DNA from: Cinnamomum chago
Taxonomy: Eukaryota; Streptophyta; Magnoliopsida; Laurales; Lauraceae
Direction: 5' to 3'
Assembly: GCA_038049695.1 (NCBI GenBank)
Contig: CP142459.1
Coordinates: forward strand, 68,130,001 to 68,194,000
Length of the DNA: 64,000 nucleotides
The translations under genes were made by a program, and so were the position numbers. Positions 12,198-58,000 of this stretch are shown here, piece after piece (position 1 is the first letter of the stretch; every line of letters starts with the position of its first letter). The notes beneath the pieces are model-generated. The model was not told the DNA's origin. It saw only the letters and a program-made list of their open reading frames with translations, and made no database searches.

Positions 12198-12271
12198 GAA
12201 AAAATCTATTTGGCCCTCCTGGGGAACCGGGCCAAAAGCCGGTCTCCCAGTCGGGCCATGTAGCACTTCTG
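12198..12271. mobile_element. Hairpin MITE, MULE-like, copy 1 of 4
   Basis: The 74-bp element is flanked by the perfect 9-bp direct repeat ATACCTTAT (12189-12197 and 12272-12280). Its ends are GAAAAAATCTATTTGGCCC and, inverted, CAGAAGTGCTACATGGCCC. The interior folds back as CTATTTGGCCC...CCGG against CCGG...GGGCCATGTAG with a loop of about six bases. The same ends recur at 30526, 33690 and 54900. Confidence 0.85.
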
Positions 12272-13108
12272 ATACCTTATATTTTCCAATTTTTTGCTCC
12301 AAATTTTTTATGGAAGATCTGGGTCCATTTGGCAGAGTTGTATGGCCCACTTGGATGGACTTTTGTGATTTTTCCATCACCAAGATGGATGGTGTCATTA
12401 TACAAATCTCAACTCGCAGTTGGTTGGGTTGACCCACCTGGACAGGCAATTACTAAAAATGAATCTGACCAAATCTGTCAATAACTCAGTCAAACTGGCC
12501 CAATTACTTTCACTCAATGCCTTAGTGAGTCACTCAGATTAATCTGTAGAATCACATACTGAAATCTTAGTTCTTTTTTTTTTTTTATCAAACACAAAAT
12601 CATTAAAACGTTTTAACAAGAGAAAATTAAGAATGAAGATTTTGGTTTACCATGTTTCAAGCATTCCCTTGAAAGTAGGGATGCTCATGATTTTGTGTTT
12701 TTTTAATCAAATACCCTTGTTATCTTAGTAAGAGGACAGCTTGTGTTACTTGACAAGTTAGAGCAAAGTATTATGACTCTCTTTGTGTGGTATGTTAATG
12801 TGATTCATTGACTCAACAAAATAAAAGGGGTGATTGTTGCTTAGCCATATATGGAAAACAAATTGCTTCTGGCGTTCTTATTTGTCAGGTCCAAGGTAAT
12901 GATTTCTACTCATTAACTAATTTTCGTCTTAGCAGTCAACTTTGCAAGTCTTAGATTTTATGGATAAGAATTTCAATTGATGCCCATTTTTAATTTGATA
13001 GATGGCTAATCCACATCCTCCTCTTTTATCTGATGAATAGAGTAAGCTTCACTGCCTGTCATGTATTATTCGATTGGATTACTGTTATTTTGCAGGGAGG
13101 AACAACTG

Positions 13109-14343
13109 ATGGCTTCCCATAGGATGAGCTGCACTATAGCAATGGCATTATTCATTTTCTTTCACTACTGCATCTCATTCACTAGTAAGACTTCTCAGCT
13201 TTCTATAGTCTCACAAACTATAATTCAACTTAGTTATAGTGTTCCATAATCCATGCTCCATCCATTTATTTTCATGAGCACTCTTATTTTGTTGGTTAAT
13301 CAATGCCTCTAAACAAATGCAGAGATAACTTCAATTTTAAAAACAGAAACATAAGCCATCAAGTTTGATGTTGGCCTATGAACATTTTTGCAGTTGCCAA
13401 GTACCCCATGGGCGTTTGTTATGGCATGCTAGGAAACAATCTACCTGCCCCAGTTGATGTAATCAATCTATTCCTCCAACATGGCATCGAACGGATCAGG
13501 ATCTATGACCCCAACACTGATGTCCTACAGGCCTTGAAAGGATCAAAGTTGCTAGTTTCTTTAGGCGTGCGTAATGAAGACATACCCAATCTCTCCAGGA
13601 GCCAAGAGGCAGCGAATTCATGGGTTTCTACTTTTGTTTCAGCCTATAAATCTGACGTAGAATTCAACTACATATCGGTTGGTAATGAGGTGATCCCAGG
13701 AGAGAATGCCCAGTATGTTGCACAGGCAATTCAAAACATACACAATGCACTTGCTGCAGCTGGCATTGGCACCATTAAAGTTAGCACTGTTGTGGCAAGT
13801 ATGGTCCTCGCCACCTCCAGCCCTCCGTCGCAAAGCGTATTCACCAGCGAAGCGATGAGTGCCATGACATCGGTCGTTTCAGTCCTCTCAAGCATTGGCT
13901 CCCCTCTCATGGCCAATGTCTATCCTTACTTTGCCTATGCAGCTGACCCAGCACACATTTCACTCCCATTTGCCACATTTACAGCTAGCTCGCCCCCTGT
14001 TCAAGATGGTAACTTGGCCTATTGGAATCTTTTCGATGCCATGGTTGATGCCTTCTACTGGGCGATGGAGAAAGCCGGTGGGACTAATGTGGACATTGTA
14101 GTGACGGAGACCGGGTGGCCGACGGCCGGAAATGGGGATTTCACTACTCCAACTTTAGCCCTAGTCTATAATACCAATCTCAGGAATCACGTGATGAATA
14201 ATGGAACACCAAAGAGACCGAGCAGCCAGATTGAAGCATACATATTTGCTATGTTCAATGAGAACCTCAAGCAGCCTAGTGGGATTGAACAAAACTGGGG
14301 AATATTCTACCCCGACAAAAAGCCAGTTTACCCGCTTTTTTAA
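13109..14343 (+). CDS. Glucan endo-1,3-beta-glucosidase (GH17, PR-2 type), tandem copy
   Basis: This is a second secreted beta-1,3-glucanase. Exon 1 (13109-13184) and exon 2 (13394-14343) are joined by a phase-1 intron in the same place as in the neighbour, giving 341 residues. The signal peptide is about residues 1-25 (core TIAMALFIFFHYCISF); the mature part starts near AKYPMGVCYG. The catalytic acid is E124 in ISVGNEV and the nucleophile E264 in VVTETGWPT, with FAMFNENLK near residue 315. There is no C-terminal vacuolar extension. It is clearly homologous to the gene 2.4 kb upstream in protein, intron phase and leader organisation, so the pair is a tandem duplication, but the copies have diverged well beyond a recent event. 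AATAAA lies at 14409. Stress-induced expression would be usual for the family, but nothing in the sequence proves it. Confidence 0.95.
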
Positions 14344-15697
14344 TGAAGTGGTGGTAGTGGTGATCATAACTAGAATACCATTGACTATGTTCTATGCACT
14401 TCGTTTAGAATAAAGGAAAGCTGTAGAATTAATCCTATAGACTATATTGAATTGATCTGGATTTGTATTTCTGGTGAAAATGTGAGTAGTTCTTGGAATT
14501 AGCTCCTGCTTTCTCTTCTAGTACGTCAATCTCATTGGTCTGTTTGTTGAATCTTTGTTTAGATAGTTATGTTTGGGTGTGTCTTCCAAGTTGAATGATC
14601 TGGTGATTCGTATTTAACTCACTTCCTCTGGGAGATGTAAACTGCTCCTTTTCTTCTCTCTTTCTATTATTTGCTTGAACTTGTCCTGCTCTGTGCTGAT
14701 GGTGCCTACCCTTCCTCATAAACAGTTGGACTGGGAATTTGTAACTTAAAAGCTTTCCCAGTCAATCAACACAGACAGGTAAATCCACTTAAATGGGCTG
14801 GAATTCTTTGTTGGTTTAACACTTCAACTGACCCTAAACTATTTTGTACATCCAAGCCAGGTTGAAGCAGGGTATCTATATGGTACAATCATGTGGCGAG
14901 TCCTTCTAATGTCAGGTCATGTTCTAGTGTATCTTGCACTGTCTACCACATTATGCATTTGATCATGTTCCAATTCTAGCCACTTTCAGGAATACATTTC
15001 AACATTTTCCAGGAGTTCAATTCCATGCAAATAAAGCCCTGGAAAAAAAAATGTGACATCGAGATCGCACTGACAGAGTGGAGTCAGTTTTTAACCGTTG
15101 TTTATATTTCCAGTAGGCTCTCAAGATCTTTGTTTAAATATTAATGCCACTCTCTCAATCTTTCGAGTCCCTGAAGTGGTCCATTTTTATTCAGTCTCAG
15201 AGCTTCAACCTTGGTTTAACCCTCCCCACACCCACACAGACATAGAAACTATGATGCATAGATACTTTAAAATGGGCAACGTGTCGTATCGTATCGTATT
15301 CGATACTTCACTTTTTACATGTAAAATCCATATCCTTGTTATGTCTATGGCATGTCCCTACCGTATCCATGCCGTATACGGGCATCATAGCACGGAAACC
15401 TGTAATAAATAGAAAAGTAGTACTTATAAAGGGGGCAGTAAGATATGTGATGATGCTTTGACAGTGACGCTCAAAGAAATAGTATAATGTTTTCCTTGGT
15501 GTCTCATGGATAGGATTTTAGAACTCATGTAGTATGCATAACTGAAATTTTATTATAACATTAGAGGAGACTAGAGACTACCCAAAAAATGTATATTAGC
15601 TTGAATTCTCTACATTTGATTGTCTATCTTCTTACCTTCTGCTAGAACCATGACCCATTGGATTTAAAAAAAAAGTGTTTACATGAACAGTTTCTCC
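14344..15697. other. Intergenic spacer without recognised gene
   Basis: It holds the 3' UTR of the second glucanase and unremarkable sequence. A cluster of CGTATC/GTATCG words at about 15280-15380 looks like the worn end of a non-autonomous DNA element. It also contains the presumed 3' UTR of the minus-strand gene that ends at 15698. Confidence 0.6.
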
Positions 15698-16132
15698 TTA
15701 GATAGAGCGACGCCTTTGAAGTTGGAGACCCTCCAATTGGTACCCACATCGCCTCGTCCAAAGGCTAACAGTATCACGGCCCTTGTTCTCGCAATTGGTG
15801 ACTGGCAATGGAGGATCCATTGCAATTGTGCTTATTGTCACCGCAGAATCAACGTTCATCGTCGCGCAGCCCACACTCTTACCAGCAAAGATCTTCTTGA
15901 TGTGGAAGAAGCTTCTGCTTTTTTTGGTGCCTGAGAGGCTCACCTTCTCCCCTCTGATGTAGCCCATGCAACTCACTTTGGGAGATGCAGGCACATCTGT
16001 TTTCAAATGACCTGCTCTGTTTTGATGGTAAAACAAAGTGCTCTCATTGCATTTTCTAACCATCCCTTTTCTTGGGGGTCTTGAACAAAACATGGGGGTG
16101 AAGTTGATGATGGATTCATGGCCTTTACCCAT
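15698..16132 (-). CDS. Small plant protein of unknown function with SPKVSCMG motif
   Basis: This intronless frame of 144 residues runs on the minus strand from ATG 16132 to the stop at 15698-15700. It begins MGKGHESIINFTPMFCSRP and carries ASPKVSCMGYIRGEKVS near residues 49-65, then basic KKSRSFFHIKKIFAGKS and a C-terminal arginine run. The SPKVSCMG block resembles a motif in small basic plant proteins of unknown role, which is the main support for a real gene. Base composition is higher in GC than the surroundings, and the 5' side has a pyrimidine-rich leader-like stretch (16140-16230). No signal peptide or membrane segment is seen. Function is not known. It could be an exon of a larger gene, but the start and stop are self-contained. 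Confidence 0.6.
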   Translation of the reverse strand: MGKGHESIINFTPMFCSRPPRKGMVRKCNESTLFYHQNRAGHLKTDVPASPKVSCMGYIRGEKVSLSGTKKSRSFFHIKKIFAGKSVGCATMNVDSAVTISTIAMDPPLPVTNCENKGRDTVSLWTRRCGYQLEGLQLQRRRSI

Positions 16133-19100
16133 ATAAGTTGTATGGATGATCTTCTAATTCTACTTCTTAGGCCACGAAAAAGAGGAAGATAGAGAGGGAG
16201 AGAAATGAGAAGTTGGGTATTCAGATCCAAGAAGGGAAGGGTATCTTGCTTTTCACATGCATTGATTGAATTGGATGGAGATCATCTCATTTTGTCAACT
16301 GTGGGAGGAAATCAAAGAGAATGACTGTTAGCTTGGACGTCTCAGTCAAAAGCTAGAACGAGCAACACACGTCAACTGACTCCTAACATGTGCATTTATG
16401 ATGTGTGGCCGTGGGTGTGATGGATTAGAATGGATTACCAACTATCCCATGGGGATGAGGCTATCACTTTGACTGAACCAATTGAAGGGGTGTGAACTGT
16501 GAAGGGATTGGTCTGTCGTAATCCGAGAGAGAGAAAAACAGAAGGGGGTGGAGAATTTGTCTTAAATATTGCATCTGATGGACATATGATCACGAAAAGG
16601 TTTGAACGTCGATGAGGAAAAAAAAATAAAAGTGATATCAGGACGATGAAATGATATTAGACTTTGGTTTTATATATACCGTAAAAATTAATTGTGATAA
16701 ATTTGATAGTGTATAATGTCCGAAACAATATCAATTTTGAATCCATGGCAATTCAAGGGGCTGGCATGCATGCATGGAATGGAGTGATGAATAAAAAAGA
16801 GCCCTAACATAAAATCTCAGAAGGGAGTGCTAAAGAGTGGGGTTTTTTTCTTTTTTGTAAGCAAAAGTGTGTTATTTCAAGAATTCCATATATCAATCTT
16901 AAGTGCAGAAGACTTCACATGCAGGAGAATAGTCGGTTCTCGAAAAGAATGGGCAACTTTATTAGAAAAAAAAAGTGGCCAATAATTCTGTTTTTGGGCT
17001 GGCAAATGGATGGCTGATAATAAAAATAGGAGAAGTGGGGTCCGTATTTAATGCACAAAACAAGCGGGTACAAGTTTCATCTTCTCCAAGTGGGTCCGTC
17101 ACCTGCCGGAACGGATAGATTTTTTTTTTTTAGAGATGGAATTTTTTTGAGGAGATAGATATGACATCTCAACCCCATGTGGCATCCCTTGATTGGTCCA
17201 AATAGGGCTTTCTTGTTTGGATCAAACAGGGGATCTGGATCCGTCACCTGCACTCTCTACATGGGTTGCCATGAATTAATTTTAAAGTAAAAATAGGAAA
17301 GTACATATATAAACTACTGTTTAGAATTAATTTATATATATATATAGAACTACCATTTACAATTTATTTTTTTTTATTAATTTTACTAGTTTTTAACCAT
17401 TTTATTCCAATATAATGATGATTTTCTTATGCTTTTCTCACAACATTTCATTTTTCTGCTACTTTGGAAACATCACAACATTAATTGGAAATCAACGTTT
17501 TCATTACACCCCCAATGATACACCCCCAATTTTCACTGGGGTGATCATATTGGGAGATTGTGTGGCCCAACTTCCATGCGGCCCACACCAGATCGAGTCT
17601 AGTGGTGTGCCGCAATGAACTTCTCATAAGTCTTGATCTGGTAAAGTCAGATAAAGATATAATCCTTGGTTGTATAATTTTGATTAGAATCAGACTCCCG
17701 GTTTGACATAATTCTCATAATAGCCAAGAGAGATGAGATTTCGGACAGGCTAGAGTCATAGTAGCCGTGACTCTATGGGGTTGGTCTATGTAAGGGATAT
17801 AAAAACCCTTGGTTAATCACCCTGTACAACTGAGAGCATTTGCAACACGTGTGGGTCTCTATTACCTCGTAAGTGCAAGTTAGTCCTCCTTGTATATGTG
17901 AGTTTCTATCATCTTAAATGTGGGAATGCCCCTTGCACATGCAAGTTTCCTATTACCTTTGCAGGGGGCAAGTCTCTCGGGCGACCCAGTTAACAAAAAC
18001 AATAGCTGCTTTTCATTAGGAGTTGGGACCATGTTTTTCTCATTTGTCTGCTACATAAAGGACTTTGTCGACCACTAAGGGCGGACCTTAGCACAGCCAT
18101 GCGGGTGCGACCCCACCCGTTAAACCATGGTGCACTTCAAATAGTTTAATTAAAATTATAGGCTCACCCTCAAAATTTATGATTTGTCCCCAAAACTAAA
18201 CAACCATTCGCACCCCTTAAATGAAAAACTTGGATACTCCACTCAACTTATACTTTTGCTCCTAAAATTTCTCATTACAGGACAAGAAGATTGTTGATAC
18301 AATCAATAGTCACAGAGATGCATAGAGAGCACTGGATTTTGATGGTGCAGGTGGGGATGCCTATGTCAGATCAATCACCTTCTGGGCCCTACGTTACCTA
18401 CATCAAGTGGAAAAAAAAAATCACAAGCTAAAGGAAACATATATAGCTCAATCACCTTCCTAAACATTTCATTTTCTTCTTTTTACCACCTGTCGTGTTG
18501 CTAACATGGTTGGACATTTGCACAGGCCAAATGATTCCAGCCATTTGCCCACGCTATTTTGACCATTAAGTGTAGCTGGTGCCTAATAATCAACGTATTT
18601 GACGATCAATATTAGACTCTTGACTCGACTGTCAAGGTCATCTGATTGATTATAAGAATGGCTTTGTGCATAGGGAATTAAACATAAAGACAACCGTCCA
18701 AAATGTGCCATGTGGGGCCGCATTTCTAGTTGGGTGAGAGTCACACTATGATATGATGCCAATATGCATTTCTAAGTAGCAAGACCTTCAATTTTAAGAG
18801 TCAATCGACGTCATATTTGGGCTGTTTTATCTTTATAATAGAAAAGAATTCATGATCAAATTAGTTTCACCAAAGGAACCAATGGCCGAATGGTATTGGT
18901 CGACACCAAGGGGCTTGTTTCTTTATCGAAATTTATAACTAGAATTTGGGGGGTTGAGATTTTTTTGGACATGATGTGACATCTTTTGTCCTCTGATGTT
19001 TGAAATGCTTCATTTTTTTCGTTAAAATTTCAAATTTCAACCACCCAAAAAACCTTTTAGAATTCTTGGAATTACACTTTCTATACCATTTGTTGGAATT

Positions 19101-19983
19101 TCAAATCCTCCAAAACTTGAAGTTTCATCTATGGGGCAACTTTTGTAGAATTTCAAATTCTCCAAAGCATGAATTATTGAAATTCTGATAAAGAAACGGG
19201 TCATTCTTCCTATGTAAAGAAACGGGCAACTTAGTTTCACACATACTCAGCAAGATCCCTACGCCCTCACATTGAAAGTGAGACTCCTAACCAACCTCCC
19301 TCTATAAAGAAGTAAAAAAAAAAAAGAAATAAAAAGAAAAATAATTAATAAAGAGGTGAGGGGTAAAGGTTAAGATGTAAAAAGTAAAGACATAAAGTGA
19401 ATATGTAGATGCAAACCTCACTTTGCTAATATTTGAATTACTGGTGTGATGGCTATATATTTGTTTTTCATCTCTTCTTGATTTATTTTTCAGTAAGTGA
19501 GAAATGATTTTATATACAGTATTGTTGTAAGTTATTTTTTTATTTTTCTTCCATTTTAACCACTTTTAAAAATAAAAATCTGACAATTTCTATTACTCAA
19601 TTATATGAAACAAAAAGATTCACCCAACTTGTATTGGCTTCCAAAATTTAGATCCATAGGGGTTCATCCATGTTACACGTATACATGTGAAAATTTGCAT
19701 GTGACTTATATTTCCTAAGTGGGCCACCTCAGTACACCATAACGGTCGCCCGATTGACGCCGTTAATACCGTCAACGGTCTCCCAGCCCCAAAAGCCATA
19801 ACCTTTCCCACTTTGTCGTCAACTTTGACGGCCCAAAGCTGACGGAGAAATCCCTCCTCGCTTCTCCTCTTCCTCTTTCTTCTTCTTCTTCCTCCTCCAT
19901 TTCCTTCTCTTCCAAACTTTCCATTTTACAGAAAGTATATGAAAGAGAGAACGAAGGGCATAAAAGGAAGAAAAAGATAGAAT
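16133..19983. other. Intergenic spacer, AT-rich, with worn repeats
   Basis: No coding gene is seen. About 17630-17990 has an LTR-like look (GGATATAAAAACCC box, then repeated GTGCAAGT/TGCAAGTT words) but no paired copy. About 18080-18290 contains GGGCGGACC-type sequence like the hAT MITE at 59185. A MITE-like inverted-repeat unit lies at 18911-19202. About 19800-19983 is the C/T-rich promoter and leader of the galactosyltransferase. Confidence 0.6.
18911..19202. mobile_element. MITE-like element with GTTTCTTTATC inverted ends
   Basis: The left end GGGCTTGTTTCTTTATCG and the reverse complement of the right end GACCCGTTTCTTTATCA form an imperfect terminal inverted repeat of about 24 bp around a 290-bp AT-rich core. 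The core repeats AATTTCAAATTY words. No convincing target duplication was found, so the superfamily is left open. Confidence 0.5.
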
Positions 19984-25882: not shown

Positions 25883-28800
25883 GGTTAAAAAGGGCAGCCA
25901 ATGATTTGATTGGAGAATCAATTTTCCACTGGCACTGAAGTTAATGATCTCCTTAAGAACATCAGGATGGGGTGTCAGAATCAAGGTGATGTTTTAAAAC
26001 CTTGCAAATACCAACCTGGCTCTTGGAGGGTCCATCGGAGCATTGATACTGAGACATTTTTCTCATCATTGAGATCTCTCTGGTTTGTTAGTTGTTCAGA
26101 TTGGTATCATTTCGGGAATTTGTATTTTTTTTTTTTTTTTTTTTTTTGGTCCTATTCAATTTTTTCCATAGGTTATTGAACTACTTTTTTCCTTTTTAGG
26201 ATAGAAAGAGAATAAGATTCTTGAAGAGTGAGGGGGTTTGCTGTTGGGGCTGTGATTGTTCTGTAGCTTACGCGGTCCTGTTGGATGTGTCTGGGTGGTC
26301 AGGCAATGTTGTGCTGGTTAGGTACTGTGAAATATATGTGCAGCCCCCATGTTGTAATAACCGGATTAATGTTTTTTAATGTGTCATTTATATGCATACA
26401 CCTTTTTATGTTACATTCTATATCCCAGATGGGTTTAAATATTTTGTGGAACTCTCTTTTTTTCATTTTTTCTGGGTTGGGTTAGTGGTCATGTGTGATT
26501 CCCTTAACTTGGAGACCCAGGGAACAATCCCTGTACATGTTACTGTTACTTAGGTCCCAACACCACTCAACCATGAGTGTGTTGACTCTTGTTCAACTCA
26601 TTTTTGAATCAACCTTCTTTTGCCTCTGTATGGACAATTAACGGCCACCGTGATTTGGCATTTGAACATATGATGCCCAGCTACGGCATGGATCCAATGA
26701 GAGGACTCGTCATAGATACCATAAGTACATGAGTTTTCTATATTACAAAGAAAGCATTAGATATGGTACGACACAATACATTACCCATTTTGAAGAATCC
26801 GTGCATCGTAGGTTAAAACAATACCTGCCAAGTAGGGTTTCTAATTTCTTTTCAATCCCAAATTCATGGCTGTATAGATAATTGTTTGTGGTGCCAAAAT
26901 CGAACAGTTTGCAACTGGGGGCTCATAATCCAGATGAGTAGAGGCTTTTTTTTAAAAAAATTTATATCAGTTCATAAGTTAAGAATTTGGATGAGCTTAG
27001 TTCCCATTGACCAGGCACAGATTTGATGTGCACGAATCTCAAATATGGCATCATGGTTTTTTGATGGATGGTTTTCGCTTGGCTATTATTAGATATATGT
27101 TAATTGTAGGAAAACTTCAATTTGATCCACCTTGGCCTTTTCACATCGCATGCGAATGGTGTAGCGCCCTAGTTCAATGCCTGGCGTAGCCTGCATTTTC
27201 ATAATTCAAGTCAGTCATCAGCTCTAACACCCATTATAACGTTTCTATCTAAATTTTCAAAGAAACATTAAGTGGGCCAACATTAGATCGATCACACATG
27301 AGGGAGTCTAGTCAGTCTACTCATTTCTATCTCAAACAAGAGGAAAGTAAACAAGTTCATCATGTATTTCGGATATAGTCAAATCCAATGGTAACCATCT
27401 TACATATTTGAATAATTACATTTTGAACACCACGTAGCTAGCGTGTTAGAGCTGATGACCAGCTTGGATTTTGAAAATGTGGCTCCCACCCTACATTAAA
27501 GAAGGGCGTTGCACCGTACCATACCATAGAAGAGCGCGCTGCATTGTAGGTTTGCCCTTAGCCATTCATACCAAACACTATTTAGGACTTTTAAAATTGA
27601 AGTCCTACCTGCTTATTAAACCTTGATGGTAGATCATAGATATGGCTAACTTAAATGCCTCATATGTGGTGGAGCCACCAGGCCTTCCAAACAGGTCCAA
27701 GTCAGAGTCAGCCCTACTATTTTAAAGCCTCCCATGCTTCTACTGAAGTAATATCTGTTTTGCAAGTGATAAAAGCAAAATTGCTAGTAAAGTAATTTCA
27801 ACCCTCAAAGATATTATTTTATCACATTTGGTAGGTCACAACAGATGAGAAAGAGTTTGGGACATGCTTTTACTTTATCATGTGGTGATGTCATACTACT
27901 TTACATTACTTTACCTTATAGAAACAAATGCATAGTTGTATTACTAGTAAGCTTGCAACAAATTTCTAAAACAAACTCCATTTTGTGCTATATATAGAAA
28001 TAATTTGGACCATTCAAAATAAATATCATCTCATCCATTATATCTTCGAGTTTGACCTTTATCGCGGGTGGCCCACGATGCCTAATCAGTCTCTCATCAT
28101 GACCGAATCATCATCCATGCCATAAATGCAGGAAGCAGATCAGTCCTCCTGACCGTTCACCCTGCAATTAAATTCAAGCACTCAGTGTACGATATGAGCC
28201 AATCTGGACCGTAGATCAAGGGCAGATCAGAAGCAATAAATCGAGCGGCAGTGAGACGGGTTCGAAGTGTCCACGTCGGGCGATTAAATCGTCCTCCTCG
28301 TTACTCGGGCTCCCTCGTTTCCCGATCCTCGGCTCCCGCTGACCCCGACACTTCCAATCCAAGTCTTCACACATCCAGCCGTCCGTTTCTCTGCATCCAA
28401 CGGTCCTCTTCTCTCCATCCATCCATTCATCCGCATTTGCCGATTTCTCTCGTAAACGTGCTTCTCGGAAACGACAGCAAATGCCGAATCATGAAAAATT
28501 GCAGAATGCAGCTTGATTTTGGTAGTGCTGCAAAGGAGTCTTTCTCTAATTAATCTTATTTTGATCGAATTCCTTCCATCTTTATCTATAGTTTTTGTGG
28601 GTAATGTTGTGTATTCGGGATTTTACCAATGATTAACTATAAGTTCATATGTACACTCTCACAAGAGCACATGTGCGGGAGAAAATCTCACTCCAATTGC
28701 AGGAGTTCACAAAACCTCCTTTCACTGTGGTTTGGTCAGTGTGGTAGCCTAGTAGAACAGTCTCTTTTGGGCTGTAGGAAATTGTGGTGAATCATATCAT

Positions 28801-30082
28801 ACAAAAATGGATGCTAATCAAAATATTACATGTTTGTATTTTAAACTTTTCTTTCGACAATCTTAGAACTTGTTTGTTTGCATGAAGGGTGAAATGAAAT
28901 AAGATTAAGATCAAATCAAAAGAGAGAAAAAGAAGAGGGAGTTGAGAGTAAAATCACTAAAACAAAAAAAACAAAAAAAATTTACTCGTTCCCTTGTTTT
29001 TATCATTTAGTGGCTTTTAAAATGCTTTTTTTTTGTCATTTAGTGCTTTTAAGATATAATAGCTTCATTTGCTATCATTGTATAATGAAAAATTTATTGG
29101 GCGAGCATTTTCTCTTACTCCATGTGGATCTATAAATCTCTCTTTCTATCTTCATCCTTTCTTTATCCCTCTCAATTTTTTCTCTCACAAAATGTCTAAC
29201 AAGCGACAAACAATTTTTTCTTCATTACTTCTCCAATGAAACATTCTCAGGATGATGCCAAATAGTACTTTAGTTTCTCTCCATTAACATATTTTCTTAA
29301 CCATCTAATTGGGCATTTTCTCCCTAATTCAATTAGACTTCAAACTAGGTAGCTAATCTTATCTTCTGTTGGAGGACATATTACCCTAGGCCAAAAAGAA
29401 AGAGTGAAAACTGGGAAAATGATGTCAAAGGCACAAAACGTTCCTCCAGAAGAACTGGGTTGCGTGCACGTGAAATGGCTACAGTAGAGAAAATGCTGGA
29501 TTAATAATAAGGTAATGATGACAGAGAATCCTTTTGTTTTGCCTTTGAATTATCTGAGAGAGAGGACTGTGCATAGTGTTTTCTGTGCATGGACAGTGCC
29601 ACCTGCATGTATCATAAATGTAACTTTAATAGAGACCAGTCACTCGGTTGTTCCCACAGCACATGAATTACTTGTTTGTTGGATGACCACAGGCTTCTGG
29701 ACTGCCAAAAGAATACCATTTAGTTTGATTTTTTTTTTGAATGCTTGGATTGTAGAGGCAAGAAAAACTTTTACCCAACAAGATTATGATTTAACTAAGA
29801 TTAGAGGGATGATAATAGCTATAAAAAAACTATTATAGATAGAATTCAGTAATGAAAAAGGAATTATCACAGAAAACTTCTACATATTTGGTTTTATGGC
29901 AACTCACTTCATTTTACAGGATTAGTTAAGAACGCCATCAATAAAACACGCAAAAAGTAAAGCAAGAGAGAATTGTAAATCTGTAAGAAGACTAACAACA
30001 TGTTGCACAGATTAAGAAATTAGGTCATCCAGAAGGATCATATGTCTTTATATAATGTATTCGTAATCTTGAGATGGGGAGG
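25883..30082. other. Intergenic spacer between galactosyltransferase and MIR166 region
   Basis: It holds the galactosyltransferase 3' UTR, a T-run at about 26117-26138, a MULE-type MITE at 27158-27515 and a GC-rich island at about 28200-28480 that looks like a promoter or leader but carries no recognisable protein. The rest is AT-rich, without genes I can support. Confidence 0.6.
27158..27515. mobile_element. MITE with 73-bp terminal inverted repeats
   Basis: The arm 27158-27230 (GGTGTAGCGCCC...CATCAGCTCTAACAC) matches the reverse complement of 27443-27515 (GGTGCAACGCCC...CATCAGCTCTAACAC) with roughly three quarters identity; the inner 15 bases are identical. The long arms around a 212-bp AT-rich core suggest a MULE-derived MITE. 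No target duplication was resolved, and the outer ends may extend further. Confidence 0.7.
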
Positions 30083-30097
30083 ATCCTACTGCAGTTT

Positions 30098-30275
30098 TTT
30101 TTTTTTTTGATAACGTAGGGTTCCCAGCCCTTTGGGCCAGAATAATCCCTACGGGCCCAGGAGAGAAAGCCGGGTAAAATTCCCCTGTGGCCCTAGTGTG
30201 GTAGAGCAGTTTCGAACCCACAACCTCCGGGTGCAAACCGTAGCCCTAGGCCAACTGAGCTACCCCTCGGGGTTA
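30098..30275 (-). mobile_element. tRNA-derived SINE
   Basis: On the minus strand the element begins TTAACCCCGAGGGGTAGC and contains box A (TAGCTCAGTTGG) and box B (GGTTCGAAAC) spaced as in a tRNA promoter. It ends in an A-run seen as the T-run at 30095-30108. The 15-bp target duplication ATCCTACTGCAGTTT / ATCCTAGTGCAGTTT flanks it (30083-30097 and 30276-30290). It is not a functional tRNA gene, since the acceptor stem is not closed. Confidence 0.9.
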
Positions 30276-30525
30276 ATCCTAGTGCAGTTTAGTTTCTTTG
30301 GATCTAATATTACAATGGCTCCTTGTTACAGTGCTCTAGCTAGCCCCTAACCATCTAATTGAGATGTCTGGTATTCAAATTTTAGAGGCCTACTGAAGAG
30401 TGGAGAGACATTTTATAATTGCCTCATCATCTGTGTCATGTTTTCTTGATGTCCCATCACAAAGACAAGTTGAGAACCCGTCATTTCTGTGGTTTCATAG
30501 AAAATTGGGTGTGTATATATTTGAA

Positions 30526-30668
30526 CAAAAAGTCTACTTGGACAAACTTTTTGGCCAGAATTTTGGCCAACCCATATGGTTTCCATTGAATATCACTATG
30601 ATATTCAATGGAAACCATATGGGTTGGCCAAAATTCTGGCCAAAAAGTTTGTCCATGTAGCATTACTG
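30526..30668. mobile_element. Hairpin MITE, MULE-like, copy 2 of 4 (near-perfect palindrome)
   Basis: The 143-bp element is flanked by the perfect 9-bp repeat ATATTTGAA (30517-30525 and 30669-30677). Its ends are CAAAAAGTCTACTTGG and, inverted, CAGTAATGCTACATGG. Between them an almost perfect 60-bp inverted repeat (TTGGCCAACCCATATGGTTT on one arm) meets at a centre of only a few bases. The interior is unrelated to the other three copies beyond the shared ends. It lies about 270 bp upstream of the MIR166 TATA box. Confidence 0.9.
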
Positions 30669-30936
30669 ATATTTGAATGGCTTGTGTAAAAATAACAAAA
30701 GAGCAGGTAGGAGCATCCGGAAATTAAGAAAAAGAGAGAGAAGAGGGGATGTAGACAGAGTGGTAGGTTTGTCTGATTATGGGTGGGCAGGTAACAGGGG
30801 TTGAGTTGACTGGCTTCACAAGTTCACTTTACACCTGGGAAATGAAAGCAACAACAGAAGGATTCATTCATTTAATTGAGAGGGCCCGAAGTTAATTGCC
30901 TTCTAGTTTTCATCAAATTCCAATTTGGAATGTTAG

Positions 30937-30943
30937 TATAAAT
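30937..30943 (+). promoter_or_regulatory. TATA box of the MIR166 transcription unit
   Basis: TATAAAT lies 167 bp before the first miR166* sequence and is followed by a CT-rich stretch (30998-31018), a common start-region layout in plant MIR genes. The transcription start is inferred near 30965-30975. Confidence 0.55.
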
Positions 30944-31094: not shown

Positions 31095-31175
31095 TGTTTG
31101 AAGGGAATGTTGGCTGGCTCGGGGCTTTCTTAATAGGGAAGCTTCGGACCAGGCTTCATTCCCCTCAAATCTTCT
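31095..31175 (+). ncRNA. MIR166: MIR166 precursor hairpin, first copy
   Basis: The 21-nt mature miR166 sequence (TCGGACCAGGCTTCATTCCC plus one C) occupies 31144-31164 on the 3' arm. The star strand GGAATGTTGGCTGGCTCGGG is on the 5' arm at 31104-31124. The duplex leaves the expected two-base 3' overhang, and the stem extends outward through TTTGAAGG / CCTCAAA. The loop is short (19 bases). miR166 guides cleavage of class III HD-ZIP mRNAs (PHB, PHV, REV, CNA, ATHB8 types) and so patterns leaf polarity, vasculature and meristems. A second hairpin follows 130 bases downstream, and both probably come from one primary transcript. Confidence 0.93.
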
Positions 31176-31221: not shown

Positions 31222-31326
31222 TAGATTGTGGAGAATGTTGTCTGGCTCGACGTCATATAGTCCATAGCTGTACTATTATTTGTCACTAGATGACCTCGGA
31301 CCAGGCTTCATTCCCCTCAACCAAAA
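31222..31326 (+). ncRNA. MIR166: MIR166 precursor hairpin, second copy
   Basis: The same 21-nt mature sequence recurs at 31296-31316. A different star strand, AGAATGTTGTCTGGCTCGAC at 31232-31252, is closer to the usual miR166* than that of the first hairpin. The terminal loop is longer (about 43 bases) and closed by GTCAT/ATGAC. The two precursors share little outside the duplex arms, so the tandem arrangement is old. They lie 75-80 bases apart in the same orientation, and no terminator or promoter is seen between them. Confidence 0.93.
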
Positions 31327-31949: not shown

Positions 31950-31994
<45 letters not shown>

Positions 31995-32567: not shown

Positions 32568-35341
32568 GGTCCATAAAATACATTAATTTGGGTCTGGATT
32601 CATTTCACTTTTTTTGTTTATTGGTATTATAGCAAGGTGCTGGGTCAAGACTCGCACATGCAAGATAATAGGAACTCGCACATGCAAGACAACCAGCCCT
32701 GTTCACCAGGTGGTAAGACCATTCCCATTTTTTGATCGATCGATGGTCGGACGTTTCTCAGAAAATGAGACCACAGATCGTGGAAGCCAAGACCTTCTCC
32801 TATGTAGTGGTTGTCTGATTTCTGTATGTACGAAAATAGCCAAGACCTTCTTCTATGTCCAACAATATACATGTATTAGAAATTGTACAATGCAGTTTTA
32901 CTATATAGATGTGGTCTCCCATCCAATTAAGATGGATAAGAATAAAGTAATAGACTCTACCCCCCCATGCAGATTGCAGAGTGCACAATAATGGAGAAAT
33001 GGACTAGAGTCTTCATTAGATAAATGGGTTTTGGTAGCATCTCATCATGACCTGTGTTAGATATCTGTTACACCTACTTGGGGTTTGCTGGACCCAACAT
33101 GTTCCCAACTCTTGTCTCACTCTGTGTAAAGTAAGGAGATGGTTGAACATCTCTTAAAATTGAGTGAAATACATCAATGAATTAACCACGTGTATGAAAT
33201 AAAATTAGCTTTAATTTCGAACTTATATCACTCTTGGATCAAGTAAAGGCGAGCCCTACATAACGGCAGCAACAAATGTAGATTTTAGTGTAGTGAAAAA
33301 AAAAAAAAGTATTTCACTTTCCACGCCTCTCCTAATAAGTTCAAAGCATAAAACATTTGTTCATTTCTATGAAATCAAATGAATGCATGAAATGAAAATG
33401 AGTAATGGTTCCAAACTCAACTAGCGTCATGTTCTCCAAAGTTGGGAGTATGGTCCACTTGACATAATCATCTAATTTGGAGGCTATGGCCCATTTGTAA
33501 ACAGGACTATCTATCTATTATCTTGATTGTTTGAAAATGATAATCATGCATATGATGTAAGTAGGGTTTGTCCATGACAATTTGATATATTTTCGGTTTT
33601 CAAAATAATGGCAATTACAATGATTAGATTAACTGCACCATCTTCTATTCAATTTCTCGTGTTAGTATTGATGTTTGAGTTAGTACTAACAAAAATTCTA
33701 CTTGGCCCGACCCTGGGACCGAATCCTGGCCCGGTCCCCAGGTCGGGGCCAAGTAGCACTGCTGTAGTACTAATATTGAGGGAGGTGGTGCATTTAAGTG
33801 GATTGGATTTGAAATTTTGGGTCCCACTCATTACGTTTGAGGAACTGGATCCAACCTTTTCAGACACATCTTTATACAAGTTTTTGGCTGGTTTAGCAGC
33901 TGGAAGATATTGAAAAGTTTATAAATGTGGTTGTGGGTTTTGATGCCTTTGATCTGGCTGCCTACTTGGAAGGCCACGCTTATCTGGAAGTGAAAAATGA
34001 GCTGAAAGCCGAGGGGAGGAGGAGATGATCTTACAAGAAAAAGGAAAAGAGAAATTCCCTTTCCTTACAGATCATCAGCCATCAGGCTATTGTTGCTTAC
34101 AAATTGAGAGGATTTCCTCATGTGTAAGTCAAGCACACCTATTCTTGCAACATCAATCCCAGTTTATTGAGTTTTATTGTTTCCTTTAGAGGTGGCTAAT
34201 TGATAATAACCGTTGATTACCAATAGAAAAGAAAGGTCCAAAGGTTTCAATAATTGATTGAGCGAAATCAATTCCATACAAAGTAATCTAACTGAGATTT
34301 ATTGTTTTGAAGTTTAGGGGCCACTTAACTACACTGCTTCTTTTTTTAGATTCAATCCAGCTGTGAATACAGCTCCAATGAGTTTCAAATTGTGGGGGGG
34401 GGGGGTGGGGGGGTGGATAATGAGCATAGGGTGAGCGGACCAATTTTAAGTGGATCTCATTGTTCTTACACACAAATGTTATAACAAAAATGTAACGAAC
34501 TGTTGCTTGAAAAAATTGTTACAAGCCTTAAAAAAGTTGTAACAATTTTTTTTCAAATTCTAAGTTATGCCAACATGAGAAACGGAGCTAGCACTTGTGA
34601 GAGCTAGTCTCTACCTTTTTCACCCGAGATGGGTGTCAAATCCACCTGAAAATAATCATAGTCCTATTTTGTCCACAGGTGTTCTTTTTTTTTTCTTGGT
34701 ATACCTAATCCATCATTTTCAACTTGTGACTTTTTTTTTTTTTTTGGGGGGGAGGGTGGGGGTGCGCTTAAACCTTGCTACTGTTGCATCCCCACGAAGA
34801 CTTGTAAGTCCACAATTTGTTTAAGAAAAGGACCATTGATGAAAAACTCAAAGCCTCAACTCCATTAGATCTCAAATGATTCAATCAGAACTTGATACTG
34901 CAATGACTGGAGCAGAACTCAATTGAATTGGTCAAAATCCAATTAAGAATTGAAGCTCCTTCTAGACCCCTTTTTTTCTTTCTCATCTTTTCTTCTTTTT
35001 TTTTTTTTTAAAAACTATGTCACGACTAGGTCAACTGATTTAGATTTCACTGGGTTTTCCATTTTTATGTATTATTGATTGACGACTTTACAGACTTTCA
35101 GTCCAGTTGTGGAGTCAATTCAACTTTAGCTTCTGTGCTAATCAGAGTTTTTGAGTTTTTAAATAACAAACAGTATATCAGGTAACCCAAGGTGGAGCAA
35201 CATATTGTGGCCACTATTCTAAAGCCTATAGACATTTTCTTGATTTTATAAACTACAATATATTTTTCTAGATTTGTAATGCATCATTAGCATGTTATAT
35301 TCGAAATTACAATTTAGAAAAAGATTGTTTCTTCAAAAGGG

Positions 35342-47500: not shown

Positions 47501-50500
47501 AAGGACTTCAAGCAAAGAAATAGGTAAGACAATCTAACAATATGGAAACTAAGTGCTTTAAGGAAAAGATGTACAAGGTTAACACAATGTAAATTCTACC
47601 ATTTTCAAGTATGTCAATAACCGCTCGAGGGCCTCTTGCCCATCAGCCAACCTAGTAGAAGCTGTTTTTGACATTGGAACTGTAGTTTTTCCCACATCAG
47701 GTTGCTGACCTTGAGACAACTCATTCTCCAAAGATGATGTTTGATAGCAATTTGGAGTGGAAAAGAAGCTATCAATTTTTCGTGGCGCAACAGAATCTTC
47801 AAACACTGAGGAGGATGCAGTTTCTGGACCAGAATAACCACAACCATAGTAATCACAGGAGGTAAGTAGGGATCTCTCACAAAACATCCAATTACCCCAA
47901 TCCAACGAAATGAGATCGTCCTGAAACATAAAATGACTATGGATCATGTCAAGCTACAGAATCCAGTAGTTGGAACTTAAACCTAAACTCAGTACATACA
48001 TATATATATATATGAGTTACGCTACAAAACTCCCTAGGAGTTTTTCTATAAAAAAAACCCTCTTTTAGCCAATAAAAGTGACACGTGTCATCAGTGATAC
48101 ACATATCCGATTCTCTCTCCTAAATATTCTCCTACAAAGGTGGATCTCTTAAAATACTAACAAATCCTTCGCTATTAGATAAGGGCAGAAACTCCCCTTT
48201 TGAGATAGGGGAGTTTTTGAGAATTTCCATATATATATGGGAGGTGCTCTTGTGAGAGACACTCTCACCTTAGTATGAGAGATAAGGTGGGGGCCCTCAC
48301 ATCTATATCCAATGCCAACAACTTAAATGTGAGGGCCCCACCTTATCTCTCATAGTAAGGTGAGAGATGCTCTCATAGGAGCATTATATATATATATATA
48401 TGGGTTTGGGGGGGGCGGGGGGGCGCTCTCAGCTCGCGTAGACGAGACTTCCCATCCACTCATGCATGTGTAGCCCACCTGGAAGGGCGCTCTCAACTCA
48501 CGTAGACAGGACTGCCCATCCACTCATGCATGTGTGGCCCACCTGGAACCCCACTTGGGTTGGGGGGGTTCTTTCTGTGTACGGTGACAGAGGCTTAAAT
48601 GATAATCCTAAACCTTGAACAACAGCCAACAAGTTCACTGTCCAACATGAGTGCACAGTCAATCCAACAAGCCAGTCCATTTGGATGGGTGCCAAACCCC
48701 TGGACTGGTGACTATCAAGGGGGATCATGTGGTGTGGTCCACTCAGATGAAACAGTAGGCGGCGGGCCTACACACACAGATATATGAACAGAAAAACAGT
48801 AAAAAACCATGCAAGTTTAGATACTATAGTAACCGTATGCAGAATCAGCCCCAAAATACAGTACCTGCGGTGTATCAATCACATGAATGGCAGAACAGGA
48901 AAAGATCCCATTGACTTGCAGTACACAGCCCTTACTCCCCGCTTCAGAAATCTCTATATTGTCATGAAACTTCTTTGTTGCTTTCCATGAAGAGAAAAAC
49001 GGATGTGTTTGCTTTCCAGAAGATAGGCGTGCATTTTCCTAACAGAGAAAAAATATTTGCAGGACAAACAAATAGTTAAAGATTGTAAAAGGCAAAACAA
49101 AGAGTGAGAACATTATGAGAGCATAGAAAGAAGGATATCAAAACAAATGATTTGACCATATACACAGTGGGAAAGAAGACATGTGAGAAATCAATACATG
49201 ATTCCATGGTAAAAACGAGGGCATGTATGAATACTTGGTGGAAGGATTCTAAATTCTAATGGCACAAGCACACAGACATGCATGAGTAAATGAGCTTTAA
49301 CTCTCCCCAAAACATTTCCCATGAAAAGCTTCATCCATGACAGGTAAAGAATGTACTTTTTGTAATACAATGGAAGCCCAACATGTGAGTTTGCACACCG
49401 CTATACAAGAAGATCTGAAAGAGAGAGAAAACAAATTGAACTTCTAGGTTTGAGACAATTCTGCACCATCAGAGAGGAAAGCTCATCTTAGATGGGCCTT
49501 GCTTCCATAGAGAATAAACCATATTGATTGATCTCCATCTTCTCTGATAAGTTCACGGATTATTTCCACTAGCATCAAGGTATATTCATCTACAACTGCT
49601 TAATGAATCTGTGCCAATATACATGTGATATGATGGTTCTTTAAAAGATCATTGAAACAAAACTAATGTGAGCAGTCCTGATTCGTCGATGGTGACAGCA
49701 GGTCCACATCTGGCTGCATACTTATCAAAAGCAAGAGGTCCAAATTCTCATAGAGTTGAGTTGATAACCAACTCATGGCAGAAAAAATGCAATCAAAGCA
49801 AAACAGGATCCCTTTCATCTTCTACTATGAAAATGAATTGAACCAAACAAAGGGAGATTAAGGCACCCCAACATAGTTGGGACAAGGCTTTGATAATGAT
49901 GATGATGAAAGGGAGATGAAGGCATTTACTGTTGGTAAAGTAAAGCCCCACATCCCACATCGCCTAAGTAATGCCTCGACAAGGCTTCATACATACCTGT
50001 TTGGGCCTTCCACCTATGAGCTTAAGCTTTTAGGTTGGTAGATGGTTTATTACATGGTATCAGAGCGGGTTTTCAATCCCGTCATTCTTGTGTAGCCCAC
50101 GTGACAAGCCCGTCTATGAAATATGTTGGGCCTACACGTGAGGGGGAATGTTGGTAAAGTAAAGCCCCACATCCCACATCGCCTAAATAATGCCTTTGGC
50201 AAGGGTTCATATATACCTATTTGTGCCTTCCACCTATGAGCTTAAGCTTTTAGGTTGGTATATGGTTTATTACATTTACGAAAAGTAGACATCTCAATTG
50301 ATGCATAGTTTAAAGAAAGGAAGACTCAATTCGTACCTCTGCTGCTCTCTTTGCCTCCAACCACAAATCAGCAACAGGTTGCGGCATATTTTCATTTTGT
50401 GTATTCAAATCATTTGCAACATTGGACTTGTAACTGGTTTCTGTTGGCTGAGAATGTGATCCTTTGGCATCATCACATGATCTGGACTTAGAAGGTGTAG

Positions 50501-53027: not shown

Positions 53028-53163
53028 GGGATGAGCGGAAGGAATAGATCTAAACCGTTTAAACCCTAGGAGAAAGAGCCCGGGGAAACAAGGACTTTTC
53101 CCGCCTTCTTTAACGATTACGTTCTTCTGAGATTGTGATTTTTCACATCGTTCGAGATGTGTG

Positions 53164-53165
<2 letters not shown>

Positions 53166-53247
<82 letters not shown>
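53166..53247. repeat. (TA)n microsatellite upstream of ATAD5
   Basis: About 41 TA units lie 139 bp upstream of the ATAD5 start codon. The tract can extrude a cruciform and should be highly variable between individuals. Confidence 0.97.
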
Positions 53248-53249
<2 letters not shown>

Positions 53250-54899
53250 TCGTGCGATCAATGCCCGCGATATGCTTCTATTTCACGCCCGGCCCGTATG
53301 GGCTCCCAAATTGTAATGCAACGAGGGAGAATCGGATCCTTGAGGTCAGGCCCATGGGCCATCAAGCCTTTACAAGTTTAGCGATGTGAATGGATCCCTG
53401 ATTCTCTCGATGATCCAAAAGTATCAGCCAGTTAAAAAATGGGTTTGGGTGTTTATTTAGGCCTTGATTAGTAAACGAGTTCGAATTCTTGTCATTTTTT
53501 TACCCATGACTTAAACATGTCTGAATACAGTTTCAACTTGGTTCTGACTATGGACTATAAACCAGACGTATAATCTCAATTTTCAAAAATCTTTCTTAAG
53601 AGGTAAGATTTTTCATATCATTCTCTACATAGGCTTCCAATCGGTTCCAATTCCAATTTTCTCATTAACGGTTTTGATTTCGAGTCCACTGTAGACTCAG
53701 ATCAAAGCTAACTCGTTTACATCCCCAAGTGAGATCCGCCTTTCTATCCAAATTGTTCGCAAAAAAAAAGATGAGGGTGTGGTCTCTTTGAGAACCGACT
53801 ATTTCTTTGGGCACGCGAAGTCCCTTCCTCTCCCATGCACTAGGTAAGTCGAGCTATCCAAGTGGCCCCAGCGAAATATCACAAGTTTTTAACCACCACA
53901 ACTAGTTTATAAGCCGTAGTGTTATCCAACTACGCTACCCCTGGAGTTTAAATTGCTCAGAACCTATAACCTCTTAGCCTCAAGACTAATTGTACAACTT
54001 GAAGATTTTGTCATGTGCAATTTTTGTTTTCACTTGTGGCGGAAGTCTTCTAATTTTTCAAAAAAGAAAAGAAAATAGTCTCAAAATATGAAGGGATTTT
54101 AACGGGAAAAACCCTCATATACGGGCATTGCATTAATTTGACTCCAATAAAAATGTGTAGACAAAACTTTGACCACTCACGTTTTTTTTTATTTTATGAT
54201 TTTTTTTCTTTTTGTAATAGTCGATATTAACTATCCAAAAACCTACATAGCGTCTACATCTCACCCTCTCCAACGCTACAGGCGTGGAGGGCATTAGCTT
54301 CTCTAGCACCTGCATCACCTTCTCCTTCACACCATCACCTGGAGAACCAGGTAATTAAGAGCACCACCTCCTCTTCCTCGCTTTGCACCATCACCTTCAC
54401 CTTCTCCATTTTTTTTTCTTTCCCTTCTCTCTTCTCCTCCTTATTTCCTCCCAGCATACACCCACTGCATCTGCATCATCCCCATGAGATGGTGATGAGA
54501 GCGAGGGAGATGAAGATACAGAGGGCTGCCACGGTCGAGACCCTCACTTTCAAATGCATAACCCTTGCCCATGTTCCTCTTTCTTCCACATCCAAAACCC
54601 ATTTCTCCAATTCCAATATCTTCTCTCCCAAAACCCCATTTCCCCTTTCAACACATTCTCCCAGACCCACCCCTTCTTGGGTTCTCAATCCAACAACCCC
54701 CATCGCCTCCACCAATGCCTTATCATCAACTACAGAAGAGACGTCGACGGCGGAATCGAATTCCCCATATAGGGTTCTCCCTTCTACTCAATGGATTGTT
54801 GTCATTGTTCTTCAAAATAAAATGTGTTACGTTTTTGTTTATTGACTAATTCATGAGTTGGGCAAAACTCTCGATCTCTATTGAATTGTATTTTTTATT

Positions 54900-55025
54900 G
54901 AGTCATTCTACTCGGCCCGATTTTGGGGATCGAGTGCTGGCCCGGTCCCCAATCTGGGATCCAACGGCCCCCTTGGAGACTGGGCCAGCACTCGGTTCCC
55001 AAAATTGGGTCATTTAGACTTTTTG
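54900..55025. mobile_element. Hairpin MITE, MULE-like, copy 4 of 4
   Basis: The 126-bp element is flanked by a 9-bp repeat with one mismatch (TTTTTTATT at 54891-54899 and TTCTTTATT at 55026-55034). Its ends are GAGTCATTCTACTCGGCCC and, inverted, CAAAAAGTCTAAATGACCC. Interior arms of about 45 bp (GAGTGCTGGCCCGGTC region) are strongly complementary. It is the most diverged copy. Confidence 0.8.
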
Positions 55026-58000
55026 TTCTTTATTTAGAAAATGACTTTGAAGATAGAAGATTATAATGACTCTAAAAAAGAGTCTGAAAGAATTAGATTA
55101 AATAAAAAAAAAAAAGCTAGATAAAGAGTGTTAAATTTTCAGATCTTCCAAAGAATGGAGTCCACTCAAATGGTCCAAACTTCGCTTGAGTGAATGCATA
55201 ACAGTAGCCTCAAAAGCATGACAAAAGTTACAATTGTGTTGAAATAGAGACTCATTTGTTCGAACAGACGAAGGGTCCTCTTGAGCAAACATAGCGACAA
55301 AGTCCTACGAAATTATAAACTGGATTCTAATTGTATAAAAACTGCTTGTTTAAATTATAATTCTAATTGTGCCTAAACAAAAAAGAAATTTCCTACTACA
55401 GTCCCGCATGTAAATTTAGAGGGGCACCCTTACCTTACCCTTACCCTTACCCTTCTTAAAAAACAAACAAATGGGTACAGTAGTAGGTGAAATTTTCGTT
55501 TGTTAGTACTAGTAGACATTTGAATTTTAAACAGATGTTGGGTACTTTATCTATATCTGTCCTTCTCAGCATATGACTCTCCTGTGTATTAATTTAAGGA
55601 CAATCAAAATCTAAATAGTCCTGGCAAGTAATTTAAATGAAGCAATCAACCTTGATTAGAAGAATGTACCTGTCTAAGAAAAACATATCTAGATCATTAT
55701 CTTTATATCTTTATACTTAGCCGTCTACACTTTTGGGGTGTTGGGACTTGGCTCAAAATAATTTTGTACTTAATCATCTACTTGACAGAAAAAACATTCC
55801 CACAAAATTCAGCTATGAAAGGAATTTTAATTCTCCTGTCAAATAGCACAAATTGGATGCTTGATAAGTCAGATCCAAGAGCCCTTCCATATTCCCAAAT
55901 TCAAGATTTTGAATAAAGAAAAAAAAAACCAACAACATTTGAGAACTTTAAAATTTGTTTAGATATGTGCTTGTTTTTATTCTTGTCAAAAACGTTCGCA
56001 TTTAATACAGTGCAAATCAGCTTGTGGGTCTTCCTTGGACCACATCAATCACAAGAGAGGGTCAGGATTGAAAAATCTCAATGAATTTGAGATTGAACCA
56101 CTAGATCACCTTATTCAATGATGAAATAAAGTCAATGGTCAAATTAATAGTAAAAAAGGACGCAGCAGTTGAAAGTAAATGACACAAAATGAGAAAAACC
56201 CACTTTTAAAAATCACTAAAGGACCAAAAAGCATTCTTAAAAGACACTAAATAAGAAATTAATAGGAAAATGGTAACTTCTTACCATTTAGCGTTTTTGG
56301 TCTAATACCCTCGTCCTTTTTTTTTTTCTCTCTTAATTTGACCATCGACTTTATTTCATTCCACTATGTTGTCCGTCTGTCACTTTACTAGAATAATAAA
56401 AGTCAAGTAAAACCTTAAAATTTCAGACAAGATGTCACATTAAAAGCACTTTGATGCAAGAATATTTTATCCATCTTTAAAAAAAAAAAAGCAACAAACT
56501 TTATCCACTAAAAAACAACCAAACTTTACTTTTCTATAAAAAAAGTTAAAAATATTTCATACAAAACAATTAAAAACAAAATATCATCATAACACACTTA
56601 TATTTTATTCTCACTTAATTTGATGCTTTACTTCACTGCATTTCACTTGATTTTAAAAGTAAAATTACCAAACAAGCCTAATTTACCATTAAGGCTTGTT
56701 TGGATGCACAAAATAAATTTTTTAATATATTAATATATAACATATAGTATAGTCTTTTCAGTTTTCTAATGTTAAAAAGACTTGCATATTTGAAAGCTTA
56801 AGAAAGGCAAGAAGATTTTTTTTTTATCCATATAGAGAGTTTAACATTTTTCTTACAACTCCCCTTTTCATAAAACTTTGTATGATATAAAAATATTTCA
56901 GAATATAGTTTTCACAAAAGTCCCTCACCAGCCGTGAAAAGGAGAGCATACTTGTTAAGATGAAAATGAGTGGATGATAAAAGTGGGGGCATTGATGGTG
57001 GCCGTGGTGATGATGATGATGGTGTTGGTCATGGCGGTGGTGGCAACAACAATAATGATGATGATAAGTGGCGGTTATAACAGTAGCGGCTACTAAAAAA
57101 ACTTAGCTTAAAATATGTTACAATATTCTTAAAAAGTTGTCAGCAAACATTATTATATCTAAATATTATATTATTTTAATTTATACTATTTTTTTCTAGC
57201 AATTTTTAAGTAGATAAATATTTCACTATAAAGATATGCAAACGAATATTATTTGTACACAAATATATTACATATTAATGTATTTTCTCATTTTCCCTTG
57301 TTACTAGAATCAAATTGGGACCTGACCATGAACTTAAAGTCTTACGACTTTAATGAGATTTCTTACAAGTAATCAGACTTAAGATTTAGACCAATTATAT
57401 TGTTGTTATTTGGTCTCCACTTGGATGGTTCAAGCTCAAATGCGACTAAATGTATATCAGTGGATAGATGTAATTATATATAGGAGAAAATGACAACTTA
57501 TGAAAACCAATGTTTGCTATTTACTTTCTTCAAACATTAAATGGAACATGAGAACCAATGATAGTCTTATCAAGTCCCAATCAATGATTTAATCATGCAC
57601 AAGTGAAAATCTACTATAAATCTTAACCTACCATCAAGAAGGTAGCACACATGCAACCACATCACTCATGGTTAATATTGAAAGTAGCAGAGATCAATCA
57701 TGCAATGGTGGTTGAACCTTGAAAAGCCCATGTAACACCCATCACCCATGTGAGAAAAAAAGATGGCAGGAGCTCTTTTTAGTTGTTTTGGCGTGGCCCA
57801 CCTCTCCTTTCTGCCGAAGATCTCGGATTCTCTGAATGCCAAAAGCCTCAGCTCTGTATAAATCCAAAAAAAGTAAGCCTGGTGTTTGAAATCTAGGACC
57901 TCACAAACTCACCATCTCCCAGTACATTATGTGCAGTCAAGTGAGAGAGACCACTCTTTCATTGATCACATATGTAAATTTTAGTTGTTTCTCAATCTCT

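Follow-up and report, generated by a model that had tools for sequence, protein, structure and literature searches.

Introduction

Mutator-type miniature inverted-repeat transposable elements (MITEs) are reported to make up 41.5% of the MITEs in 207 plant genomes (PMC12550479), and target duplications of 9 bp are described as usual for Mutator-like elements (MULEs; PMC3169594). For the hairpins of ribosomal RNA (rRNA), template switching is reported to yield compensatory stem changes together with loop inversions, and the inversion of a perfect hairpin to leave its stem unmarked (PMC8794818). Here we describe a family of small hairpin elements found as four copies, E1 to E4, in a stretch of 64,000 nucleotides of the Cinnamomum chago genome (GenBank assembly GCA_038049695.1, contig CP142459.1, positions 68,130,001 to 68,194,000 of the forward strand; this whole stretch is called the window, and positions below are counted along it). 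The elements are short, occur in many copies and have inverted-repeat ends and a target duplication, and are almost certainly a family of MITEs. They carry the target duplication of about 9 bp that marks MULEs and are probably of Mutator type, that is, MITEs moved by a predicted Mutator-like transposase. Taken as a whole, the reading we lean towards, by a modest degree, is that of Mutator-type MITEs whose palindromes have been corrected and flipped by template switching. The kind of element is familiar; its structural record is unusual and well replicated.

Results

The four elements and their parts are given below. Their unequal ends are called A (like CAAAAANTCTACTTGG) and B (like SAGNARTGCTACWTGG, where S is C or G); the members fall into a GC class and an E2 class, and the two orientations of the GC-class loop are called F and R.

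12198..12271, plus strand: E1, 74-bp element of the GC class with its A end (GAAAAAATCTATTTGG) on the left and its B end on the right; loop orientation R
12189..12197 (left) and 12272..12280 (right), no strand: target duplication of E1, ATACCTTAT, exact over 9 bp
30526..30668, plus strand: E2, 143-bp element of the E2 class with its A end on the left and its B end on the right; CTA loop
30517..30525 (left) and 30669..30677 (right), no strand: target duplication of E2, ATATTTGAA, exact over 9 bp
30534..30595, plus strand: left arm of E2, 62 nt, with 98% complementarity to the right arm
30596..30598, plus strand: central loop of E2, 3 nt, CTA
30599..30660, plus strand: right arm of E2, 62 nt
33690..33764, plus strand: E3, 75-bp element of the GC class with its A end on the left and its B end on the right; loop orientation F
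33681..33689 (left) and 33765..33773 (right), no strand: target duplication of E3, TAGTACTAA, exact over 9 bp
54900..55025, minus strand: E4, a long element of the GC class (126 bp) with an A-type end on the right; left end ambiguous (GAGTCATT)
54891..54899 (left, TTTTTTATT) and 55026..55034 (right, TTCTTTATT), no strand: target duplication of E4, matching at 8 of 9 positions

The elements span 74-143 bp, and all four fold better than their dinucleotide shuffles, with z scores of -3.7 (E1), -21.9 (E2), -6.0 (E3) and -9.8 (E4). One A and one B end are present in each of E1, E2 and E3. Each half of E4 is like most of E3, giving E4 the look of an inverted dimer. An earlier note on this DNA had placed all four between 9-bp direct repeats, which holds exactly for E1 to E3 but only at 8 of 9 positions for E4. 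An unguided scan of the window for hairpins of 50-400 bp enclosed by an exact 9-bp repeat returned E1, E2, E3 and nothing more, compared with one match in total over 20 shuffles. A reversed-sequence control of the same scan (3 matches) is invalid because reversal preserves both the hairpin and the direct-repeat features.

Interiors were compared after trimming 19 bases off each end and judged against 1000 shuffles. E1 matches E3 in one orientation (p 0.001), E3 matches E4 (p 0.001) and E1 matches E4 (p 0.005-0.006); blastn of the whole elements gives 5.6e-8 for E1 with E3 and 1.6e-7 for E3 with E4. The matches of E2 to these three are marginal or missing, with p from 0.008 to 0.44 depending on the pair and the scoring, and a blastn E of 0.022 to E3 with the ends included. 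With the others E2 shares no more than a short motif of 10 bases in the loop, and one shuffle in 1000 reached it too. A profile built from 20 GC-class interiors recovers E1, E3 and E4 in the window and not E2 (E up to 5). E1, E3 and E4 carry one GC-rich interior, as do the other GC-class copies fetched from the genome, and E2 is a second class, with a distinct interior palindrome between nearly the same ends. The notion of an unrelated interior in every copy is ruled out for E1, E3, E4 and the fetched genome copies by these interior matches. The earlier note had read each interior as a palindrome of its own rather than a copy; that description survives only between the two classes, where similar ends enclose different palindromes, and inside each class we find instead one common interior that has merely diverged.

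The genome searched comprised 1,061,006,199 bases in 14 contigs. A pattern made of the two inner ends of the GC class matched at 21 places (18 matches forward, 19 reverse) and nowhere in the controls; it demands TTGGCCC beside the ends and is thus blind to copies with quite different starts. All places except E3 were fetched, 20 in number. The 9-bp repeats are exact in 17 of them, match at 8 of 9 positions in L012 and, after a one-base shift, in L008, and are lacking in L011. Two pairs, L015/L016 and L014/L024, have the same target repeats and the same flanks and are duplicates, which leaves 18 distinct copies. With E1 and E3 these align as one hairpin, in which some have central sequence extra or missing. 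The outer 8 bases of the two ends are unequal (n=20): position 8 of the A end and position 7 of the B end are T in 20/20, and position 8 of the B end is G in 18 and A in 2.

For the E2 class, the pattern AAANTCTACTTGG, a gap of 92-122 bases and CCAWGTAGCANT matched exactly 351 times on the forward and 327 times on the reverse strand, at least 678 exact end-pattern matches in 1.06 Gb, while controls gave 0. As this pattern leaves the interior free it is the fairer form of the interior test, and it showed one interior, not many: that of E2 is present in the matches, among those listed. Our sample consisted of 101 copies, namely E2 and 100 places fetched from contig C1 and the beginning of contig C2. 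Odd variants partly guided the choice in the first two fetches, and the later ones drew on what was left. The 9-bp repeats, 79% A+T where exact, are exact in 82 copies, match at 8 of 9 positions in 8 and at fewer in 11. The association of shared ends with 9-bp target repeats reported for the window thus extends to the hairpin family elsewhere in the genome, in both classes. Full length, 143 bp, was found in 95/101, and the 6 copies of other lengths were excluded from the loop and arm counts below. End pairs were sought at gaps of 30-60 and of 92-122 bases, and at the shorter gap the same ends occur at 19 places, 5 of them GC-class elements and 14 of them E2-class copies with internal deletions that removed sequence from the left arm, right arm or centre.

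The suggestion that the family is very abundant holds only in part: the end pattern has at least 678 exact matches, but we searched 20 random stretches of 10 kb (200 kb) from 8 of the 14 contigs and 40 kb next to the window and found no member. With 678 copies in 1061 Mb, about 0.15 E2-class copies would be expected in these 240 kb, and the four copies in one window are a local excess. Weak blast matches in two of the random stretches (L031 and L044) were inspected and not accepted as members.

The loop of the E2 class, read from the A end to the B end, occurs in both orientations. Among the 95 full-length copies it is CTA in 51 and the reverse complement TAG in 41, a ratio not different from 1:1 (p 0.35), with TAA in 2 and CAG in 1; the latter two look like TAG with the outer mismatch made into a pair, in either direction. 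Genome-wide, an A end followed by a CTA loop was counted 425 times. Each of the three large subfamilies holds both main loops (CTA:TAG of 22:28, 11:9 and 7:4), and in six groups of copies with no difference outside the loop the loop itself varies; the largest of these groups, with 34 copies, has 13 CTA, 19 TAG, 1 TAA and 1 CAG. The GC-class loop, about 16 nt long, is in F orientation in 10 and in R orientation in 10 distinct insertions, E1 and E3 included; the duplicate pairs are counted once, and E4, which scored R, and E2, which scored F by 3 points, are left out. The margins of these assignments run from 5 to 23 points and are smallest in L014 and L022. Orientation shows no link to interior similarity (p 0.28) and a weak one to end type (p 0.07), and identical ends carry either orientation, as in E3 (F) compared with L023 and L027 (R).

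It is most improbable that errors of assembly or polishing swapped the 3-nt loop in near-identical palindromes. The E2-class loop is indeed that short, and the 124 nt surrounding it read nearly the same both ways, but both orientations also occur in the GC class, where the loop is about 16 nt long and private differences are many, and counts near 1:1 would require the error to be very frequent. A second explanation, confined to the GC class, is that a long inverted-dimer ancestor held both loop orientations and that the short copies each lost one unit. The resemblance of E4 to an inverted dimer of E3 speaks for it, as does a common middle piece that L014 and L010 retain, adjoining an F or R loop, and of which L009 retains a remnant. 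However, this middle piece, as we read it, itself occurs in both orientations, and the 3-nt loop of the full-length E2-class copies is left unexplained. We regard such an ancestor as somewhat unlikely.

The arms of the E2 class provide the second line of evidence. Its subfamilies differ at several arm positions, nearly always in both arms, and within copies the arms are near-identical although the subfamilies differ. Scoring rare changes against the majority of a copy's own group, we find 29 distinct ones, of which 22 are one-sided (35 copies) and 7 are two-sided (15 copies). Independent mutation would be expected to give about 0.015 two-sided changes. Position 13 of the B end matches the A end in 59/95 copies and not in 36/95, so the palindrome varies in its outward reach. 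The idea that one arm is copied onto the other, put forward in the earlier note, is accordingly favoured by the E2 class, where two-sided changes exceed chance, and gains little from the GC class.

These same data suit, in part, a history of ordinary MITEs in which subfamilies were seeded by a few perfect-palindrome copies of both loop orientations and have undergone plain mutation since. The subfamilies are young and homogeneous (34/95 copies are identical outside the loop), most of the distinct rare changes are one-sided, and the arm matching of the GC class is weak. Nevertheless, three two-sided changes are private to single copies where about 0.015 were expected in all, and both loops occur in each of the three large subfamilies, which requires three or more changes of orientation, either ahead of the bursts or in the course of them. 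We consider this history unlikely. Exchange between copies, by gene conversion or gap repair, could also move the loop either way and re-match the arms, since the element reads nearly alike in both directions and pairing in either register is possible. Hundreds of near-identical donors are available, orientation is untied to interior similarity and only weakly tied to end type, and Galileo of Drosophila is a reported precedent for inner sequence moved into both terminal repeats (PMC4168063). Against this, the private two-sided changes of L070, L075 and L076 have no donor among the 95 copies, and we hold exchange to be rather unlikely.

Several other features of the window and of the sequences searched deserve mention. 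E1 lies between two GH17 genes of the same direction (9750-10751 and 13369-14343, plus strand). Two tandem MIR166 precursors (Rfam RF00075) are found at 31097-31169 and 31225-31321 on the plus strand, and the near-perfect hairpin of E2 ends about 430 bp upstream of the first. A LysM gene is present among the window genes, and reading frames of a retroelement gag (PF03732) and a reverse transcriptase (PF00078) lie in a GC-richer stretch at 592-4028 (plus strand). These genes and the GH17 and MIR166 loci point to a plant host. A further foldback repeat at 48229-48399, with 67-nt arms of 81% complementarity, 37 nt between them and (TA)n runs on both sides, may be a MITE inserted into a TA microsatellite, and an inverted repeat at 27158-27515 has 73-nt arms, 73% complementary, with 212 nt between. 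The unguided scan of the 200 kb of random stretches found 5 hairpins with 9-bp repeats, none bearing the family ends. In the random genome stretch L035 a recurring palindromic motif, TTCGCTCGAGCGAA, occurs at 6637-6771. A different near-palindrome (L046:9076-9185) has ACTTGG...CCAAGT ends and GAGGCTAGCCTC arms, and its flanks match at merely 6 of 9 positions. No relatives were found in viral contigs (0 matches) or plasmids. Two matches in prokaryote genomes (L001 and L002) are read as chance, including L001:1-68, a record labelled Candidatus Bathyarchaeota that starts with a hairpin of perfect 23-nt arms containing CTACTTGGCCC.

Discussion

Changes matched across the arms beyond chance, as in the E2 class, and a loop inverted between matched arms are what template switching at a hairpin would be expected to produce. 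Under the model we propose, a transposase from elsewhere would recognise the unequal A and B ends, and insertion of the element would generate the 9-bp target duplication. The two ends enclose a hairpin palindrome that belongs to one of the two shared sequence classes. When DNA synthesis crosses this palindrome, the growing strand may jump to the complementary arm (template switching, or quasipalindrome correction), and the switch of strand would transfer changes from arm to arm and flip the central loop relative to the ends. A misplaced switch may sometimes drop a portion of an arm, as the deleted E2-class copies would suggest. That the pattern arose by template switching inside the hairpin, and not in some other way, is in our judgment about as likely as not.

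A number of observations weigh against the reading as a whole. Of the seven two-sided changes only three are private (L070, L075 and L076); three others co-occur in two copies, L056 and L061, and the last distinguishes a group of six copies, so that the independent events are few. Palindromic founders could have passed on the subfamily differences present in both arms. The arm similarity within a GC-class copy exceeds that between different copies by little (20.0 vs 19.2, permutation p 0.018, n=15, the rearranged L009, L010, L012, L014 and L020 being omitted), and the 10:10 loop count of this class could come from the loss of one unit of an inverted-dimer ancestor. The two duplicate pairs of the GC class each agree in loop orientation, and none of the fetched E2-class copies has flanks in common with another, so these copies document no in-place flip. 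Lastly, a Pfam scan of 15 of the 22 window open reading frames of at least 130 aa found no MULE domain, and the genome was not searched for an autonomous partner. The assignment to the superfamily is based on duplication length, which the earlier pointer to a Mutator-type transposase fits; no transposase was linked.

It may be asked whether the switch is tied to movement itself, with transposition, or its repair, passing through a hairpin or arm-switching stage that randomises loop orientation. This is doubtful in our estimation, but if it were true, each burst would return the loop to about 1:1 and re-match the arms, and the fold would be kept while the sequence drifts. The family offers hundreds of near-identical palindromes at different sites, and the unequal ends of each one record its orientation; they form a natural experiment on the rates of hairpin correction and flipping in a plant. 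MITE hairpins have also been proposed as a source of new microRNA genes, with 985 MITE-derived microRNAs reported from 56 species (PMC12550479), and a process that matches arms therefore bears on the origin of microRNA genes. We found no report of loop flipping in MITEs in one open-access library, judged from titles and the openings of abstracts. At least one of six 11-mers from the ends occurs in 48 papers, of which the 20 listed are unrelated by title.

The family shares with plant Mutator-type MITEs its short, non-coding, multicopy nature and its inverted-repeat ends, and differs in being nearly all palindrome, in its unequal outer 8-mers and in having its loop in both orientations. The Tm1 Mutator/Foldback elements of root-knot nematodes are described as having 9-bp duplications with asymmetric 7-bp motifs just inside them, and as including MITE-like members whose terminal repeats enclose inverted repeats (PMC3169594). 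As far as that account goes, Tm1 is a precedent, by analogy, for unequal outer ends inside 9-bp duplications, although its terminal repeats are much longer and built of tandem repeats, its host is an animal and a transposase-encoding member is known. Galileo, in which inner or foreign sequence is reported to have been incorporated into both terminal repeats, resembles the present family in that respect and is otherwise a larger element of the P superfamily with 7-8-bp duplications (PMC4168063). A parallel to the pattern within the hairpin is offered by the template switches described in rRNA, which likewise combine compensatory stem changes with loop inversion, including inversion at perfectly pairing hairpins (PMC8794818); there, however, the genes are under selection and loop inversions are rare, whereas here the hairpin belongs to a multicopy transposon and the two orientations stand near 1:1.

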